Below, piece by piece: positions 54,509 to 62,788 of a DNA stretch of 64,000 bases. Position numbers and translations under genes: made by a program. The notes under the pieces are model-generated. The model saw nothing but the letters and a program-made list of their open reading frames with translations, was not told where the DNA came from and ran no database searches. How positions within the stretch are numbered: the stretch's first letter is position 1; every line of letters begins with the position of its first letter. The stretch is from Bacteroidota bacterium (GTDB taxonomy: Bacteria > Bacteroidota > Ignavibacteria > SZUA-365). Location: assembly GCA_003246455.1 (NCBI GenBank), contig QKAF01000093.1, positions 1 to 64,000 on the forward strand, written 5' to 3'.

Positions 54509-56014
54509 TTACCGGAACATCTCTTCCACCGGCACGATGCGGATTTTCGCATCCGTGAACGGCAGCGGGTAAACCTCGATGGCCTTGTCTTCCTCGAGCA
54601 CCTCGTCGGGCTTGGGCGTCTCGTAGGTGACCGGGCTGGGACTGTTCGCAACCAGCTCCGCCTTGAAGGCTTCAGCATCCGCGGTGACGACGCCGAACTT
54701 GATGTTCTTCACCTGGAGGTGCTTGCGAATCGCGGCGTTGACCTTTTCCAGCGTGAGTTCGCCGATCTTGCGGCGGAACAGTTCGATATAGTCTCCGTGA
54801 ATTCCGTAGAACTTGCTGTCGACCGCGTAGCCCAGGCGCTCCGACGTCGTCGTGGCATACTGCAGGGCATACTTGTCGAGGAATTTCTGCGTGAGCTCAA
54901 ACTGCTCCCTGGTCATGCCGCTGTCTATCACGTGCTGCAGTTCCCGGATCGCGGCACGGAGCGCGAAATGGCGATGCACGTGCTGAACCGGACGAATCCA
55001 CACTTCGAAGAGCTGCTGACGGCGCGCGTTGTTCGTCTCCGGCATCTGCCGCCGTCCGCCGTTCGGGAAGATCTCGATGTAGGAGTAATCCCCGTAGTTC
55101 ATCCCGCGGGCTTCGCGAATCACCTGGTAGAGATGCGACGCGGAATTCCGGTGTTCGCCGAACCAGGAGTTGAACAGCGCGAGCGCGTAGAAATCCTCAT
55201 CGCCCCGGAGGACGGAAATAGGGAAGCCGAAGCTGATCGCGGTGGCGTCGCACTCTTTTTCCACCATCAGCATTTCGAAACCGTCGATGGGCGCGACCGC
55301 CGGCGGATCGGGCTGCTGGGGCATTCCCTCGGGAAGCGCCTTCAGGTCTTTCTCCAGACGTGCTACGAGCGTCTGGTCGTAGCCGCCGCCGAGTCCGATC
55401 ACGAAGTTGTCGCGCGTGTACCACTTCGCGTAAAACGCGCGCACATCGTCGATCGTGATCGCGTCGAGGCTGCTGAGCGTTCCCTCGTTGAGATGCCCGT
55501 AATGGGTGCCGGCGTACACGAAGTCATGGAACACCGCCTTGCCGAGTTCCTCGTCGTTGGCGTACCGGAGGGATTTCTCGATCCCGTTGCGCAGGTCGGT
55601 CTTGATGCGCTGGAAATCCTCGTCCCTGAAACCGGGATGAAGGATCGCGTCGGTCAGGAGTTCGTAGTATTCGTCGATGTTGTCCCGGTGCACCCGTCCG
55701 CGGATGACGGTCATTTCCTTGTCCACGTTCGCCCCGTAGCCGGCGGCCATCGGATAGAGCGCTTCCATGATGTCTTCATATCCGCGCTTCTCGCTGCCGC
55801 CTTCGGTCATGAGCATGGCCGTGAGGTTGGCGAGCCCTTCTTTTCCCGCGGGGTCACACTGCGCGCCGACCTTGAACCAGATATTGAAAGAAATGGTGGG
55901 ATCGTCTTTCACCGGAAGCAGAACCACGTTTTCGGAAGAAGGTACACTGCATGCGCTCATGAGCAGAACAACCGCAAAAATGATGAATGAGGAATGGGTG
56001 ATGCGCGTTTTCAT
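54509..56014 (-). CDS. M16 peptidase-like lipoprotein, catalytically silent partner
   Basis: 501 residues with a lipobox signal (FAVVLLMSAC). It has the M16 fold (PTISFNIWFKVGAQCDPAGKEGLANLTAMLMTEGG, RDNFVIGLGGGYD, SFGFPISVLRGDEDFYALALFNSW, YGDYSYIE), but where active members have HXXEH it reads GLANLTAML, so the zinc site is missing. In two-component M16B proteases one chain supplies zinc and the other substrate binding. This looks like the binding partner of the next gene, which begins upstream and ends two bases before this start. Confidence 0.88.
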   Translation of the reverse strand: MKTRITHSSFIIFAVVLLMSACSVPSSENVVLLPVKDDPTISFNIWFKVGAQCDPAGKEGLANLTAMLMTEGGSEKRGYEDIMEALYPMAAGYGANVDKEMTVIRGRVHRDNIDEYYELLTDAILHPGFRDEDFQRIKTDLRNGIEKSLRYANDEELGKAVFHDFVYAGTHYGHLNEGTLSSLDAITIDDVRAFYAKWYTRDNFVIGLGGGYDQTLVARLEKDLKALPEGMPQQPDPPAVAPIDGFEMLMVEKECDATAISFGFPISVLRGDEDFYALALFNSWFGEHRNSASHLYQVIREARGMNYGDYSYIEIFPNGGRRQMPETNNARRQQLFEVWIRPVQHVHRHFALRAAIRELQHVIDSGMTREQFELTQKFLDKYALQYATTTSERLGYAVDSKFYGIHGDYIELFRRKIGELTLEKVNAAIRKHLQVKNIKFGVVTADAEAFKAELVANSPSPVTYETPKPDEVLEEDKAIEVYPLPFTDAKIRIVPVEEMFR

Positions 56015-56016
56015 GG

Positions 56017-57354
56017 TCAGTCCCTCCCCTGCAGCGTGGCAATGGTGCGATGCGCCGGCGTGAGATACGTCGCCACCGCTTTCTGGATGTCCTCCGCGGT
56101 CACGGCGTCGTACGCCGCGTACAGGACGTTCACCACCTCGATACCGCCGGTGATGGCCACGAGGCGCGCGAGACGGCCGGCGACCTTGTCCGGAGTGTCA
56201 AGATTCATGAGAAAAGAGTATTTAAGTCTTTTCTTTACATTCTCGAGCTTCCGCGCGGGAACGGGCGCGTCGCGAAACGTCGCGACGGTACGGTCGATCT
56301 CGGCGAGCACGTACGGGAGGTCTTTCGCGTCCTTCACCATCGCGTAGATCGACCAGAGGCCCGGGTCCCGGTTCAGATCGAAGTCCGCGCTGATGAACTG
56401 CACCTTCTGCTCCTGCAGCACGAGTTTCTTGTAGATCTCGCTGGTCTCGCCGAACAGCAGGTCGTCGAGCATCGAACCGGCGACCATCAGGCGGTTCGTC
56501 GGGTCGAGCGCGGCGGCCTTGTACGAGACGATCATCAGCGGCAGCGTCTTTCCCTCATAGCGGACCGCCACCTTCCGTTCTGCCGTCTGCGCGGGTTCCG
56601 CGGGAATCGCGGGGGCAACGTAGCCTTTCTTCCAGCCGCCGTAGTAGTTCCGGATCATCTCGAGCGCTTTTTTCGCGTCGAAATCCCCCGCCAGCAGCAG
56701 GACGACGTTCTCCGGACGATAGTAGCGCTGGAAAAACTCCTTGCTGTAGGCGTACATCGTCGGCATGGCCTTGATGTCGGCTTCGTAGCCCATCGTGGTA
56801 TGTCCGTAGGTGTGCCTGGTGAACGCCGTCTCCTGCAGCGCTTCGATCAGCACCTCCCAGGGACTTGTCCGGTTCTTCCGGTACTCTCCGTACACGGCGC
56901 CCGCCTCGGTCTGGAACGGCGCCTCCGCGTAGTCGAGATACTGGAAGCGATCGCTTTCAAGCTTGATCACCGTTTCGAGATCCTGCGACGCGAAGGAAAG
57001 ATGATAGGCCGTGAGATCGTCGGTCGTGTACGCGTTGGCGTCCGCGCCCATGGCCGTCACCATCCGGTCGTACACCGAGGACGGATAATTCTTCGTACCG
57101 CGGAACATCATATGTTCGAAAAAATGCGCGAAACCGGTTTTCCCCGTCTCGAATTCGTCACGGGATCCGGTGCGCACGATGCTGTAGTAGGACATGAGTC
57201 CGCCGCTGGACATCGGGATCATCACGACCTTCAGTCCGTTTTCAAGCGTGTGCGTTTCCCATGCGTAGGGGAACACACCATTACCGCCCGGTGCCGCGTT
57301 CATGACACCTCCCGTCAATGCGTAGGCAAGCATGACATACACTAGTAGTTTCAC
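56017..57354 (-). CDS. M16 zinc metallopeptidase, active subunit
   Basis: 445 residues from GTG 57354 (AAGGAG site 5 bases upstream; signal VYVMLAYALTGGVMNA). It contains the inverted zinc motif HFFEH (His77, Glu80, His81), the downstream zinc Glu region (ETVIKLESDRF, AGAVYGEYRKNR) and the partner-half motif VVLLLAGDFDAKKALEMI. Likely a periplasmic peptidase of the M16B type, forming a heterodimer with the adjacent zinc-less chain. Longer starts up to 57474 are open but lack a signal peptide. Confidence 0.92.
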   Translation of the reverse strand: MKLLVYVMLAYALTGGVMNAAPGGNGVFPYAWETHTLENGLKVVMIPMSSGGLMSYYSIVRTGSRDEFETGKTGFAHFFEHMMFRGTKNYPSSVYDRMVTAMGADANAYTTDDLTAYHLSFASQDLETVIKLESDRFQYLDYAEAPFQTEAGAVYGEYRKNRTSPWEVLIEALQETAFTRHTYGHTTMGYEADIKAMPTMYAYSKEFFQRYYRPENVVLLLAGDFDAKKALEMIRNYYGGWKKGYVAPAIPAEPAQTAERKVAVRYEGKTLPLMIVSYKAAALDPTNRLMVAGSMLDDLLFGETSEIYKKLVLQEQKVQFISADFDLNRDPGLWSIYAMVKDAKDLPYVLAEIDRTVATFRDAPVPARKLENVKKRLKYSFLMNLDTPDKVAGRLARLVAITGGIEVVNVLYAAYDAVTAEDIQKAVATYLTPAHRTIATLQGRD

Positions 57355-57409
57355 AAAGACTCCTTCTTTCATTCGGAAACGACAGAAGCGCTCGATGGAG
57401 CGTTCTCGT

Positions 57410-57438
57410 AATCTATTGAAAGCGCATCGATCCGACAA
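57410..57438 (-). promoter_or_regulatory. Promoter of the M16 operon
   Basis: Minus strand: TTGTCG (57438-57433), 17-base spacer, TAGATT (57415-57410); start expected near 57403. The -35 element lies inside the first copy of the 29-bp repeat. Confidence 0.5.
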
Positions 57439-57510
57439 AGGGTAATATCTGTCCGGATATCCCCCGGCGACCATGATCCCATCCGATAATCGGTAACATC
57501 TGTCCGGATA
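57431..57510. repeat. Two imperfect 29-bp direct repeats, 51 bases apart
   Basis: 57431-57459 and 57482-57510 share 25 of 29 bases, ending in the identical ATCTGTCCGGATA. They lie in the divergent region between the M16 operon and the HTH-CHAD gene. They could be regulator-binding sites or a dispersed genomic repeat. Confidence 0.8.
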
Positions 57511-57667
57511 GCTCCATCCCTCGGCCGCGGTGCGCGGATTGCGGCGTGTGCTTCGTCGCGGATGGAATCGCGGGCGGCGAAAGCGAAGCGAATCCGCCGC
57601 TTGATTTCGTCAGCGGAATTCGGTAATCATAGCTGATACATCGACCACAGTTCGACAGCGGGAATCC
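57511..57667. other. Remainder of the divergent region before the HTH-CHAD gene
   Basis: No gene or clear promoter for the plus-strand gene is seen. The stretch 57530-57620 is GC-rich. An open frame crosses it on the minus strand but has no coding character. Confidence 0.4.
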
Positions 57668-59152
57668 ATGGCTCTCTCCCTCGACGAAACGCAGCGCACG
57701 CAGCTCCTTTCCCTCACCGGCGATTCCGTCACCGACGACGAGCGGCGGCGCAACGCGAAGATCGTCCTCGCCTACGCCGACGGCCTCGACACGCATGCCA
57801 TCGCGGCGGACTCCGGTCTGTCCGAAAGCCGCACCCGCTACTGGCGGGGCGTGTTCGAGAAGTACGGCATGGAAATGTTTGCCCCGGGCTTCGCTCCGAA
57901 GGTCGTCCGGCGGCAGAGTCCGGAAGCGGAGCGCCGGCACGGGCTGCAGCTGGAGGATGCGCAGCGCAGTGCGCTCACCGCGCTGCTGGCGAATGCGCAT
58001 GATGAAGATCTTCGGCGCCGCGCCGCCATCATCCTCGCCTACGCCGAAGGGAAAGAGACCGGGGCGATCGCGGAAATTGCGGGCCTGTCGCCCAGCCGCA
58101 CCCGCTACTGGCGAAAAGCCTTCGAGCGGGAGGGCATGGCGATGTTCGCTGCCGACTCCATGCAAAAGGAAGACGCGCCAGCCGGAAAGGAGCGGAAGAA
58201 ATCGAGTCCCGGTCTCCGACCGGACGACTCTTTCGCGGAGGCGGGCCGGAAGGTGCTGCGCATGTATTTCGAAGACATGCTCGAGCAGGAAGCCCACCCG
58301 GCGATGGACAGTGATCCCGAGGTCGTCCACAGGATGCGTGTCGCCACCCGGCGTCTTCGTTCGGCGTTCGGCATTTTCGACGGCGCGTTCACCGAGAAAT
58401 CGAAGCGGAAGTTCCGCCGCCCGCTGCGCAGCACCGGTCGGGCGCTCGGCCGCGTGAGGGATCTCGACGTGCTGCTGGAGAACATGCGCGGCTACGCCGC
58501 CTCGCTCGCGGCGGAGGACGCGGCATCGTTCGCGCCGCTGCTGCGCGCGTGGGAGGAAGAACGCATGGTGCATTACACCGCGCTGCGCACGTATCTCGAA
58601 AGCCCGATGTACAGGGATTTCCGCAGCGCGTTCCGCACGTTCGTCGACACGCAGGGCAGCGGAGCGGTCGAGGCCGGTGAGGTTGTCCCCGGAGTGCGCC
58701 GCCGCATCGCGCATATCGCGCCGGTGCTCATCCTCGAGCGGTATACGGATGTGCTGGCATTCGAGAACGGCCTGAGCCTGGCTTCGATCGACCTTCTGCA
58801 CCGTCTCCGCATTCAGAGCAAACGCCTGCGCTACACGATGGAATGTTTCTCCGAACTGCTTGGCGCGGGAGGACGGAAGGCCGTCCGCCAGGTCATCGAA
58901 CTGCAGGATTATCTCGGGGAGTTGCAGGATGGACAGGCCGCCAGCGACATGATCACCGATTTCGTCAGCGGGCTCGATGCACGGCAGTCTTCGCGTCCCA
59001 TGCAGGAACGCCTCAATCCCGCCCCGCTTCTCACCTACCTCGCCACGCGCGAATCACGCAAGCATGAGCTGATGCTCGGCTTCGCAGAGGCCTGGGCCGA
59101 TTTCAACTCGCCCGACATGCGCAAGCGGATGCTGCGCGCACTGCTGCGCTAA
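57668..59152 (+). CDS. Two tandem HTH units fused to a CHAD domain
   Basis: 494 residues. Residues about 4-71 and 93-157 are two copies of one unit: an N-terminal helix, then RRRNAKIVLAYADGLDTHAI/RRRAAIILAYAEGKETGAI, and a recognition helix LSESRTRYWRGVFEKYGMEMF/LSPSRTRYWRKAFEREGMAMF. This is the homeodomain-like HTH known from IS630-type transposases. After a charged linker, residues about 190-480 are a CHAD domain: histidine-and-arginine helices EVVHRMRVATRRLRSAFGIF and LHRLRIQSKRLRYTMECF, and basic patches (KSKRKFRRPLRSTGRALGRVRDLD). CHAD domains bind polyphosphate; the HTH units suggest DNA binding. It could link polyphosphate to DNA or transcription. No polyphosphate kinase is nearby. 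Confidence 0.88.
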   Translation: MALSLDETQRTQLLSLTGDSVTDDERRRNAKIVLAYADGLDTHAIAADSGLSESRTRYWRGVFEKYGMEMFAPGFAPKVVRRQSPEAERRHGLQLEDAQRSALTALLANAHDEDLRRRAAIILAYAEGKETGAIAEIAGLSPSRTRYWRKAFEREGMAMFAADSMQKEDAPAGKERKKSSPGLRPDDSFAEAGRKVLRMYFEDMLEQEAHPAMDSDPEVVHRMRVATRRLRSAFGIFDGAFTEKSKRKFRRPLRSTGRALGRVRDLDVLLENMRGYAASLAAEDAASFAPLLRAWEEERMVHYTALRTYLESPMYRDFRSAFRTFVDTQGSGAVEAGEVVPGVRRRIAHIAPVLILERYTDVLAFENGLSLASIDLLHRLRIQSKRLRYTMECFSELLGAGGRKAVRQVIELQDYLGELQDGQAASDMITDFVSGLDARQSSRPMQERLNPAPLLTYLATRESRKHELMLGFAEAWADFNSPDMRKRMLRALLR

Positions 59153-59256: not shown

Positions 59257-60555
59257 TCAGAGCAGCAGCCAGCCGATCAGCGCCAATCCGGTGATGAGCA
59301 CCAGGCCGAAACCCGGCAGGGTATAGCGCCGCAGCGCGGCGGCACCGAGGGAAAACGCGATGCTGCCCTTCACGATGGTATTCATCACGACGGCGATCAG
59401 GATCGCGACGGACGCGGTGCTTTCGCTCAGCGTCGTTTTCGACAGGTTCGCCATCGAAAGCGTGATGGCGTCGACGTCCGTCAGTCCGGCCAGACCCGCG
59501 GCCAGGTACACGCCCCCGTCGCCCAGATAGATCTGCGCCGCCTTCGAGGCGAAGATGATGACGGCGAAAATCAGACCGAACTTGATCGCCGACATGAGTT
59601 CGAACGGATTCTTCAGGTCCACGTCGGTCGTGCTGTCCTTTTTCTTACCGAAGAGCAGAAGCATGCTCGCGCCCACCCCGCTGACGGTGAGGATGGCAAT
59701 GAACGGCCAGATGAACGCCAGGAGGGAGCGGTTCACCACCGCGATTTCCACCAGGATGCGGGGAAACATGATCGAGCAGGCCAACACGATCGCCGAGGCA
59801 AAGGTCTTTCCCAGTTCCGGCGCCTCGCGGCTTTTCTGCGAGAACGACAGGGTGACGGCCGTACTGGATACCAGGCCGCCCATCATGCCCGTCAGCGCCA
59901 GTCCCTTTTTCGATCCGAAGACTTTGACCAGAACGTAGCCCGCGAAGCTGATGCCCGCGATCAGCACCACCATGTACCACACCTGCCGCGGATTGAGGAC
60001 GTCGAGCGGACCGAGCGTGGTATTGGGCAGAATCGGCAGGATGATGGCCGTGATGATCGCGAATTTCAGCGTGGCGTAAATATCCTCCGCCTGCACGTGG
60101 GAAACGAGCTGCCGCAGCGGGGCTTTGAGTGAAAGGAAGAGCGTGAGCACCACGCTGGTGGCGACGGCCACGATGTAGAATTCGTGGTGGATGAGAACGC
60201 CGAGAATGAACACGACGATCGCCGCGACCTCGCTGGTCGCCCCGTGAAAGCCCGTGCGCGCTTCCAGAAAGTATGAGACGATGACCATCGCCATGAAGCC
60301 CGCGGCGAACACCCCGAGCACCCACGGCGCGATCGCCGTCCCGAGAAGTCCGGAGAGGAATCCCAGCAGCGCGATCAGCGGAAACGTGCGGATGCCGGCG
60401 AACAGTTTCTGATGATCCTCCGACGATCGTTCGCGCTCGATGCCGACCAGCGCGCCGACGAGCAGGCTGATGGCGCCTTTCTGGAAGAGCACGGCGAGGG
60501 AGACGTCGAGCGCCGCGGGGAGCGCTGATTGAAGCAGGGCTGGGATGGGAGTCAT
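59257..60555 (-). CDS. MgtC/SapB - DUF4010 family membrane protein
   Basis: 432 residues with about 12 hydrophobic segments. The first third is MgtC/SapB-like (FQKGAISLLVGALVGIERERSSE, FAGIRTFPLIALLGFLSGLLG), the rest is the DUF4010 region (GGLVSSTAVTLSFSQKSREAP, AGLAGLTDVDAITLSMANLS). The family is found in Mg2+-related and transport contexts but has no settled activity. ATG 60555 precedes the first membrane segment and lies about 30 bases behind TATATT (60586-60591, minus). Longer starts overlap the divergent gene region. Confidence 0.9.
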   Translation of the reverse strand: MTPIPALLQSALPAALDVSLAVLFQKGAISLLVGALVGIERERSSEDHQKLFAGIRTFPLIALLGFLSGLLGTAIAPWVLGVFAAGFMAMVIVSYFLEARTGFHGATSEVAAIVVFILGVLIHHEFYIVAVATSVVLTLFLSLKAPLRQLVSHVQAEDIYATLKFAIITAIILPILPNTTLGPLDVLNPRQVWYMVVLIAGISFAGYVLVKVFGSKKGLALTGMMGGLVSSTAVTLSFSQKSREAPELGKTFASAIVLACSIMFPRILVEIAVVNRSLLAFIWPFIAILTVSGVGASMLLLFGKKKDSTTDVDLKNPFELMSAIKFGLIFAVIIFASKAAQIYLGDGGVYLAAGLAGLTDVDAITLSMANLSKTTLSESTASVAILIAVVMNTIVKGSIAFSLGAAALRRYTLPGFGLVLITGLALIGWLLL

Positions 60556-60697
60556 GGGCACGCTGTCCGATGTGAGGGGCGTTGAAATATAGACGATGAC
60601 GAAGAGAGAAAAAAAATCCGCCGCGGGCGGAATCACGGAATTTTTCCGCGCGCGATGTGTCAAGACCATGTGCCCGTCTCGGAAGGAAGGAGTCATC

Positions 60698-62788
60698 ATG
60701 CATCGTCCGCCCATTTTTCTGCTCTTCATCATTCTCGTGCTCGCCGCCGTCCCCGATGCGGAGGCCGGCAGGCTCTATGCACGACGACCCGGCACCGCCT
60801 CTCCGGTGTATAATCTCACGCAGACCGAAGTGCATACGCGCACGACGATACGCAACATTCTCGCCGTCACGCACGTGGACGAAACGTTCCACAACGACCA
60901 GGCCGCCGAGCTGGAGGGCTTCTACGTCTTTTCCCTCCCGGAAGGCGCAACGGTGGACGGCCTGTGGATGTGGCTCGACGGCAAGCGGTATACCTTCATG
61001 GTCAAGCGGAAGGAAGAGGCGCAGCAGATTTACGATTCGCTCCAGGAAAACCACATCGGCGACCCGGTCATACTCGAATCGATGGGCGCCAACCGTTTTC
61101 AGATCCGCATCACCCCGATCCATCCCAACGACGACCGCCGGATCGAGCTGCAGTATTTCCAGGTGCTGCCGGTGGATGCGGACGGCTTCGTCCGCTACGA
61201 TTATCCGATGAACATGTCCGGTTACCAGGGCACGGGGGTGGGAAAACTCGATATCGAGGTCGCCCTCGACATGGACGCCCCCATCGACCGGATAGAAACG
61301 AATTTCGACGATCGTCCGATGATGCAGGCGCTGACGCCGTTCAGCGACCGGCATGTCAACGTGAATCTCAACGCGGAGAATGTCGTGCTGGCCGAGGATT
61401 TCACCGTCGAGTACCGGCTGGAAGGATGGGCAGATTCGCTGTTCGCGCTGCGTCACAGCGATCCCGTCGCCGCGGACAGCAGCACCTTTCTCCTGTGGTT
61501 CCCCGACACGATCGACGTCTCTGCGTACGCGAAAGTCGATTTCGTTTTCGCGATCGACGCCTCCGGAAGCATGACCGGTCTGCGGCGGGGAATGGTCATG
61601 TACACGCTGCAGCGCATCCTCGTCCGTCTGATGCGCTATGATCGGTTCGCAATCATTCTGTTCAACGACGGGATGCAGCGCTTCCCCGCCGATACCGCCA
61701 TGGCGTTCGCCAGTCCCGAGTCGATCCAGGAAGCGCTCGCGTTTCTGCAGGAGCGCTACCGCCCTTCCGGAACCACCAATTACCAGGCGGCGCTCGAGCA
61801 GGTGGCTCCCAGCGCATTGCGTCCGGAAGCCCACCATCGCTGCGTGTTCGTGACGGACGGGCTGCCGAACGTCGGCGCGACATCCGTCAACGGCCTGCTT
61901 CCGTATTTCATGATCAAGAACCGGCTCACGTCATTCTACCCGCTGACGATCTATACCGAAAGCATCGACGTTCTCAGCGAGCTGGCGCGGCTGACCGGAG
62001 GAAAGATCACGGCGCTGGAGCAGGGAATGGATATCGACGATGCGCTCGAACGCCTCAGTTTCGATTTCACGTCGTCCACGGTCATGCAGGCGATGCTGAC
62101 CTACCCCGAGGGGGTCGTCGACGCCTTTCCGCTTCGTCCGCTCCTTGAAGTCATGCCGGCCCGGATGACCGGCGCGGGACGCTTCCCGGCGCCCGTGCAG
62201 GGGCCGTGCACCTTCACCTACACCCTCCCGGGCATCGAAATACAGACGCAGGACACCCGCACGCTGACCCTCGACAACAATCCCGACGAACTCGTGCAGG
62301 TGTCGCGCTACTGGGCAGCGCTGCGGATCCAGCAGCTTCTCGATCAGCTGCGCGACGTGACCGACTCGACGGAAATCAAGGAAGCCGTGATCCGCCTGAG
62401 CGAGAAGTACATGATCCTGACGCCCTTCACCGCCTTCATCATCTACCGCGAGCCCGACGATCCGGGCGGAGGTCTCGCAGCCGGAGAACTGGCTGCTGCG
62501 GAAGAACTCCAGCTGGTGCAGAACTATCCCAATCCGTTCAATCCGTCGACATCGATCCGGTTTTTTCTTCCGTACCGCGGCAGCAGCGCGCGCGCCAGCG
62601 TCCGTGTCTACGACGTCCTCGGCAGGCTCGTGCGGATTCTCGCCGACGACCTCGACGCGCCCGGGTGGCAGACCGTGACCTGGGACGGCCGAGACGACGC
62701 GCAGCGTGCCGTCGCGTCCGGGACCTACCTCTGCGTCCTGTCCTTCGGCGGCGAACAGCGTGTGATCACCATGACATTGTTGAAATAA
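60698..62788 (+). CDS. VIT-VWA domain secreted protein with T9SS sorting domain
   Basis: 696 residues from ATG 60698 (AAGGAAGGAG site; signal FLLFIILVLAAVPDAEA). A VIT domain (VHTRTTIRNILAVTHVDETFHN, EGFYVFSLPEGATVDGLWMW, QQIYDSL) is followed by a VWA domain with MIDAS DASGSMTGL near residue 287 and VFVTDGLPNVGA. After a beta-rich region comes EKYMILTPFTAFIIYREP, the typical VIT-VWA ending. The C-terminus is a sorting domain (LVQNYPNPFNPSTSIRFF, VYDVLGRLVRIL, ASGTYLCVLSFG). It probably binds a protein ligand at the cell surface. The BNR gene follows after 10 bases. Confidence 0.93.
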   Translation: MHRPPIFLLFIILVLAAVPDAEAGRLYARRPGTASPVYNLTQTEVHTRTTIRNILAVTHVDETFHNDQAAELEGFYVFSLPEGATVDGLWMWLDGKRYTFMVKRKEEAQQIYDSLQENHIGDPVILESMGANRFQIRITPIHPNDDRRIELQYFQVLPVDADGFVRYDYPMNMSGYQGTGVGKLDIEVALDMDAPIDRIETNFDDRPMMQALTPFSDRHVNVNLNAENVVLAEDFTVEYRLEGWADSLFALRHSDPVAADSSTFLLWFPDTIDVSAYAKVDFVFAIDASGSMTGLRRGMVMYTLQRILVRLMRYDRFAIILFNDGMQRFPADTAMAFASPESIQEALAFLQERYRPSGTTNYQAALEQVAPSALRPEAHHRCVFVTDGLPNVGATSVNGLLPYFMIKNRLTSFYPLTIYTESIDVLSELARLTGGKITALEQGMDIDDALERLSFDFTSSTVMQAMLTYPEGVVDAFPLRPLLEVMPARMTGAGRFPAPVQGPCTFTYTLPGIEIQTQDTRTLTLDNNPDELVQVSRYWAALRIQQLLDQLRDVTDSTEIKEAVIRLSEKYMILTPFTAFIIYREPDDPGGGLAAGELAAAEELQLVQNYPNPFNPSTSIRFFLPYRGSSARASVRVYDVLGRLVRILADDLDAPGWQTVTWDGRDDAQRAVASGTYLCVLSFGGEQRVITMTLLK

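Follow-up and report, generated by a model that had tools for sequence, protein, structure and literature searches.

Locus and domain architecture

The window, the whole stretch of 64,000 nucleotides analysed here, encodes at positions 57668–59152 a protein of 494 amino acids beginning with ATG (all features lie on the plus strand unless marked −). Pfam HTH_23 matches two stretches of this protein (E 1.6e-12; HTH_28 and HTH_29 are also above cut-off), CHAD (PF05235) matches residues 197–429 (E 1.1e-49; 169.9 bits against a cut-off of 25.6), and orthologues occur in 10 of the 12 genomes of family f1. An earlier note, made from the letters of this DNA, had described the gene as a CHAD domain preceded by two tandem HTH units, and both the architecture and the open reading frame prove to be real. 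HTH unit 1 (residues 6–73; 57683–57886) and HTH unit 2 (residues 96–160; 57953–58147) are each modelled by AlphaFold2, on an alignment of 10 sequences, as four helices including an HTH (residues 7–18, 24–37, 42–49 and 53–71 in unit 1, with pLDDT about 90; residues 97–109, 113–126, 131–138 and 142–160 in unit 2). The mean pLDDT is 84.8 for the whole protein, in which the linkers are of low confidence, and rises to 89.3 when the HTH pair is modelled by itself, so that the structure prediction proposed in the earlier note as a check returns HTH folds for the N-terminal repeats.

Over 69 residues the two units share 52% identity. Recognition helix 1 (residues 53–71; 57824–57880) starts with SESRTRYWR, one of the most strongly conserved 9-mers in its unit, and recognition helix 2 (residues 142–160; 58091–58147) contains SRTRYWRKA. 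The shared motif SRTRYWR (residues 54–60 and 143–149) lies in coding DNA that has an identical stretch of 20 nt in both places, which agrees with the description of units of about 70 residues with nearly identical recognition helices. A variable and probably disordered linker (residues 161–182; 58148–58213; pLDDT below 50 for residues 163–179), which has the highest column entropy, leads to the CHAD domain (residues 183–494; 58214–59149), whose Pfam core spans 58256–58954 and whose model is matched by solved CHADs in Foldseek.

Two genes identified by Pfam as M16 peptidases (56017–57378, −, and 54509–56014, −) lie divergently upstream as a pair in all 8 f1 genomes with flanks examined, and an MgtC/DUF4010 membrane protein gene (59257–60732, −; Pfam) lies downstream in 7 of these 8, with none in the eighth stretch. 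These neighbours say nothing about polyphosphate, and no polyphosphate gene adjoins the HTH-HTH-CHAD gene in the window or in the f1 flanks examined. Elsewhere in its own genome, where this gene is the sole CHAD match found, the search for ppk suggested by the earlier note yielded two ppk1 genes. All 12 f1 genomes contain ppk1; ppk2 is found in 10 of the 12 and is absent from the genome of the window. Further downstream, an ORF of 730 amino acids (window 60596–62788) has by eye a von Willebrand-like middle and has near its end a motif like NYPNPFNPSTSIRF, of the kind found in C-terminal sorting domains of the window's phylum.

In the intergenic region that separates the HTH-HTH-CHAD gene from the divergent M16 gene lie two direct repeat copies of 35 nt (57430–57464 and 57481–57515), 83% identical, the second lying 51 nt further on (about five helical turns) and both species-specific as far as seen; no such match is expected from shuffles of the window. 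The repeats pointed out upstream of the gene thus exist. As conserved targets (57431–57510 had been put forward) they do not hold up, as their core is absent from the relatives' loci scanned and no shared k-mer rises above shuffles. The repeats at 57430–57515 were therefore rejected as a conserved operator, because the core is near-unique in its own genome (the two copies here and one two-mismatch match elsewhere) and was not found in those loci; they may have arisen by local duplication or be a site peculiar to this species, and as operator candidates they are weak. The k-mer comparison covered 9 f1 upstream regions and is a weak test. A promoter-like block (TTGATT ... TAATCAT; 57601–57630) is present in most f1 upstream regions (alignment A5), and a stringent consensus scan found no promoter upstream of the HTH-HTH-CHAD gene. 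These observations bear on whether the protein may be a polyphosphate-responsive transcription factor, in which the HTHs would bind operators and polyphosphate held by the CHAD would shift their affinity, tuning ppk, pst and other phosphate genes. The repeat with its spacing of 51 nt would suit such a factor, but the lack of an enriched k-mer in f1 and of the repeat core in relatives speaks against it, and we regard it as rather unlikely.

Conservation and kinship of the HTH and CHAD parts

The full HTH-HTH-CHAD protein occurs in 10 of 61 surrounding genomes, all of them among the 12 of family f1, and the HTH alone was matched in 10 of 245 genomes of the window's class. The search for the same architecture that the earlier note had recommended therefore gives a positive result, and its presence in 10 of 12 f1 genomes shows that the combination is not due to chance. 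Among the 10 orthologues, the 9-mers of lowest entropy in both HTHs fall at the recognition helix, with 0.34 and 0.20 bits. The units as a whole average 1.19 and 1.17 bits, and variability peaks in the linkers (1.86 and 2.14 bits). The dN/dS ratio is 0.05–0.33 in the HTHs where defined and 0.10–0.18 in the CHAD, dS being saturated or undefined in several cells. Judging from these sequence comparisons, both HTHs are kept under purifying selection in the 10 genomes. This argues against a chance fusion in which the HTHs have no role and the CHAD alone matters, as does the repeated return of HTH-only searches to polyphosphate genes in several lineages (see below); such a fusion is very improbable, even though the two f1 genomes without the protein carry CHADs without this HTH.

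Overall, the net charge of the HTH units is close to neutral (−5 to +4) and not strongly basic; their recognition helices are positive (+1 to +4). The HTH pair has no match at E ≤ 0.001 in Foldseek, and its fold neighbours in VIA-align are middling (Z 5–6.5, best 6.5), comprising sigma region 4, paired domains, transposases and others. Another reading is that the HTHs no longer bind DNA and instead bind protein partners, such as polyphosphate kinases, or polyphosphate itself. The near-neutral charge would agree with this reading, as would the adjoining ppk genes in Chloroflexota, which put a partner at hand, and the view, given in passages of PMC6537752, that CHAD helps polyphosphate enzymes to recruit their substrate. 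On the other hand, the arginine-bearing recognition helix shows the strongest conservation in both units, its core is largely kept across two phyla, and the top fold neighbours, for all their middling Z, are mainly DNA-binding HTHs (sigma region 4 and paired domains). A loss of DNA binding is thus considered improbable.

In NCBIfam, each HTH unit is matched best by the N-terminal part of IS630 transposases (NF033545, positions 1–47; E 4.7e-11; 42.7 bits, below the whole-protein cut-off of 100), which supports the proposed IS630-transposase type, albeit below that cut-off. IS630-like proteins are also the next relatives in HTH-only searches. In a tree of 38 HTHs (72 columns), the IS630-like ones and a protein with six HTHs lie behind a starred branch (98/98), across which the HTHs of polyphosphate proteins sit apart from them; few forks of this tree are resolved, and the order of unit duplication is unreadable from it. 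The NCBIfam match, the next relatives and the tree together make an IS630-type ancestry of these HTHs likely. Neither Pfam nor NCBIfam finds a DDE catalytic domain in the window protein, whose residues 183–494 are CHAD. Domestication of an IS630 element, as the earlier note had suggested, fits these results and is a possible direction of descent.

The CHAD part adopts in the model the fold of two four-helix bundles of solved CHADs, and Foldseek aligns it with the CHAD of Chlorobium tepidum (CtCHAD; 3e0s_B, TM 0.90 by target, E 9.1e-10) and with the polyphosphate complex 6qva (E 3.9e-10). As aligned with 6qv7, residues H221, R224 and R228 (58328–58351) correspond to H253, R256 and R260 of CtCHAD, R264 (58457–58459) to R296, and R388 and Y389 (58829–58834) to R418 and Y419, with an offset of 204 in CtCHAD numbering derived by hand from this alignment. 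Mutation of H253, R256, R260, R296 and R418/Y419 weakened polyphosphate binding in CtCHAD, according to the mutants described in passages of PMC6537752. All six positions are invariant in 10 of 10 orthologues, whereas K441 of CtCHAD is not kept and is aligned with I410. The description of the CHAD as a polyphosphate-type domain is thereby reinforced, all six contact residues being intact, and the domain probably binds polyphosphate chains, as its fold and these residues indicate. The same passages report that two studied CHADs bound neither single-stranded DNA nor RNA. Separately, at two loci of genus g20, in the same class as the window, the CHAD is seemingly split into two adjacent half-length ORFs (L013 and L014; 162 and 178 amino acids in L014, each perhaps one four-helix bundle), and L012 and L015 contain single half-length CHAD ORFs.

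Polyphosphate gene contexts of related HTH proteins

The genome scan gives the best 80 of 347 relatives, and the counts of HTH-CHAD proteins are therefore lower bounds. At least 13 Chloroflexota loci encode an HTH within a CHAD protein, arranged as HTH-PpxIII-CHAD (L031, L032, L033, L036 and L046), CYTH-HTH-PpxIII-CHAD (L037, L038, L039, L041, L042 and L043), CYTH-HTH-CHAD (L048) or HTH-CHAD (L034), where domain III alone of Ppx/GppA is matched. By models built from one or a few seeds, ppk1 or ppk2 lies within the stretch examined in 11 of 13 loci, mostly directly adjoining, and no ppk was found within the stretch examined in L034 and L038. The order ppk2-ppk2-ppk1-(HTH-PpxIII-CHAD) is present in L031 (4027–9992), L032, L033 (4030–9926) and L036, while in L037, L039, L041 and others the CHAD protein, of the CYTH-HTH-PpxIII-CHAD form, comes first with the ppk2 genes behind it. 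The HTH form is rare in Chloroflexota, since a search of 400 evenly drawn genomes gave a strong match in the seed genome only; a whole-protein profile run on 301 Chloroflexota genomes found CHADs in at least 162, with the HTH stretch only in the seed (G431) among the matches listed.

In a tree of 112 CHADs, from which matches below 60 bits or 240 residues, identical sequences and second ORFs of one locus were left out, family f1 forms one side of a branch (100) and has as its neighbours the HTH-PpxIII-CHAD and HTH-CHAD proteins of Chloroflexota (support 82, drawn open); two of the 12 rows labelled HTH-HTH-CHAD are further copies of the gene of the window's own genome. This placement, read from sequence, suggests transfer of HTH-CHAD between phyla.

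A query made of the HTH units of family f1 only (A3) was also run against one other class, that of G084. At E ≤ 1e-9, 9 of the 244 genomes searched were matched, 8 of the 9 being polyphosphate- or phosphate-linked. Five of the nine, from family f56, encode CYTH-HTH proteins, some with a detectable or degenerate CHAD. G084 itself encodes an HTH-coiled-coil protein in the neighbourhood of pstSCAB-phoU and of a CYTH gene, the latter about 1.7 kb away. In G221, genes for a Na/Pi cotransporter, an HTH-basic-coil protein and a CHAD follow one another. G921 (L203:6092–7805) encodes an HTH-KPKAA-coiled-coil protein 70 bp before ppk2. A Na/Pi cotransporter gene comes after ppk2, and pst/phoU genes flank the HTH-KPKAA gene on its opposite side. 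This HTH protein of L203 looks like an IS630-type HTH combined with a tail of the AlgP/PhaF kind. G255 (L232:14124–15890) encodes a protein with six HTH units of this type in tandem, beside a gene that by eye encodes a HerA-like ATPase, and no polyphosphate gene was found near this six-HTH gene or near the HTH-basic-coil gene of G924.

At E ≤ 1e-4, 22 of the 234 genomes searched were matched, with 13 linked, 7 IS630-like and 2 (G255 and G924) neither, where a genome counts as linked if its HTH forms part of a CYTH(-CHAD) protein or adjoins genes for ppk2, CHAD, CYTH, a Na/Pi transporter or pst-phoU. The 13 linked genomes are non-independent, as they fall in four families (nine f56, two f40 and one f51, plus G920), and the IS630-like labels were assigned by eye, with short fragments in three cases out of seven (G914, G309 and G428). 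With identical models and flanks of ±1.5 kb, CHAD, CYTH, ppk2 or a Na/Pi transporter was found in 12 of 13 linked genomes against 0 of 7 IS630-like ones; the thirteenth is G084, whose CYTH gene lies beyond the flank. Among the nine f56 CYTH-HTH proteins, one of which (G942) is cut by a contig end, CHAD is detected at the cut-off in three and a fourth reaches 12.9 bits. In G920 (L230:6549–11949), ppk2, a protein with seven tandem HTHs and a CHAD protein with a start that is CYTH-like by eye stand in a row. The contexts of related HTHs, both in this class and in Chloroflexota, strengthen the putative role in DNA and polyphosphate binding that the earlier note had suggested for the protein.

The same contexts also count for the transcription factor described above, as related HTH proteins stand beside ppk1/ppk2, pst-phoU and Na/Pi transporter genes, and the invariant recognition helix suggests sequence-specific reading. 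Against it, no shared repeats or alignment were found upstream of three Chloroflexota ppk operons, and the HTH fusions to CYTH and Ppx domains and the seven-HTH form would be unusual for a regulator.

A putative DNA–polyphosphate bridge and its known counterparts

On balance it is probable that the HTH-HTH-CHAD protein bridges DNA and polyphosphate with HTHs from an IS630-type source, most likely holding granules on the nucleoid. The CHAD would grip polyphosphate chains and the two flexibly linked IS630-type HTHs would bind DNA, probably at two copies of one site or on two separate duplexes, since both have the same recognition helix. This would most likely serve to anchor polyphosphate granules at the nucleoid, a task also proposed, by different means, for AlgP in Pseudomonas. 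An IS630-type source would have supplied the HTH for polyphosphate proteins of several lineages; family f1 would now have two HTH units in a gene no longer beside kinase genes, with single-HTH relatives in Chloroflexota still beside ppk1/ppk2. A tether is preferred because the HTHs are multiplied (two here and seven in L230) and fused to polyphosphate-handling domains, and because one relative has an HTH with AlgP/PhaF-like KPKAA repeats before ppk2; a polyphosphate-sensing regulator is less likely than a tether. In favour of the bridge are the architecture kept in 10 of 12 f1 genomes, the sole CHAD match in a genome with two ppk1 genes, the six invariant contact residues, the strongly conserved recognition helices and the recurrent polyphosphate contexts of related HTHs. 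The multi-HTH forms and the HTH plus KPKAA form before ppk2 suit multivalent tethering. The near-neutral HTHs, the lack of a conserved candidate site and of an adjoining polyphosphate gene in f1, the middling structure matches of the HTHs and the 2 of 12 genomes without the protein count against the bridge.

CHAD, HTH and IS630 are each known, CHAD reportedly having been defined in a paper of 2002, and in CC0, CC BY and CC BY-SA literature no publication was recognised that describes a fusion of HTH and CHAD or places an HTH in polyphosphate operons; there is a realistic chance of a new functional family. It is possible, though we put this forward tentatively, that one IS630-type HTH lineage, combined in several bacterial lineages with CHAD, CYTH-CHAD, Ppx domain III, KPKAA tails and ppk2 operons, forms a new family of polyphosphate–chromosome linkers, which would give polyphosphate operons their own means of attaching polyphosphate to DNA or of reading it at promoters. 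As this HTH module recurs beside polyphosphate genes of other bacteria, it could serve as a dedicated connection from the chromosome to the phosphate store of the cell. Passages of PMC9239181 and PMC6537752 place the formation of polyphosphate granules in the nucleoid region and call it unclear how and why the granules are associated with DNA. With one protein carrying a polyphosphate domain and HTHs, and with relatives inside ppk operons, the polyphosphate–chromosome link would become directly testable.

The window protein shares with the IS630 family transposases (NF033545) the N-terminal HTH type of both its units, but has no DDE catalytic domain. Its CHAD fold and all six polyphosphate residues are those of CtCHAD (3e0s, 6qv7 and 6qva) and other CHAD 'phosins', for which no HTH fusion is described in the passages of PMC6537752 used here, whereas the window protein carries two HTHs. 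CYTH-CHAD proteins of the YgiF type have the CHAD partner domain in common with it; the window protein is without CYTH, and several relatives do have CYTH and place the HTH between CYTH and CHAD. The proposed role is like that of AlgP of Pseudomonas aeruginosa, a proposed granule–chromosome tether (as is PhaF for PHA granules), which according to passages of PMC9239181 has a KPAA-repeat tail and for which no HTH or CHAD is mentioned there. In contrast, the window protein has no KPAA-repeat tail, its DNA module being the HTH and its polyphosphate module the CHAD, while AlgP-like KPKAA repeats are found in the related HTH protein of L203.
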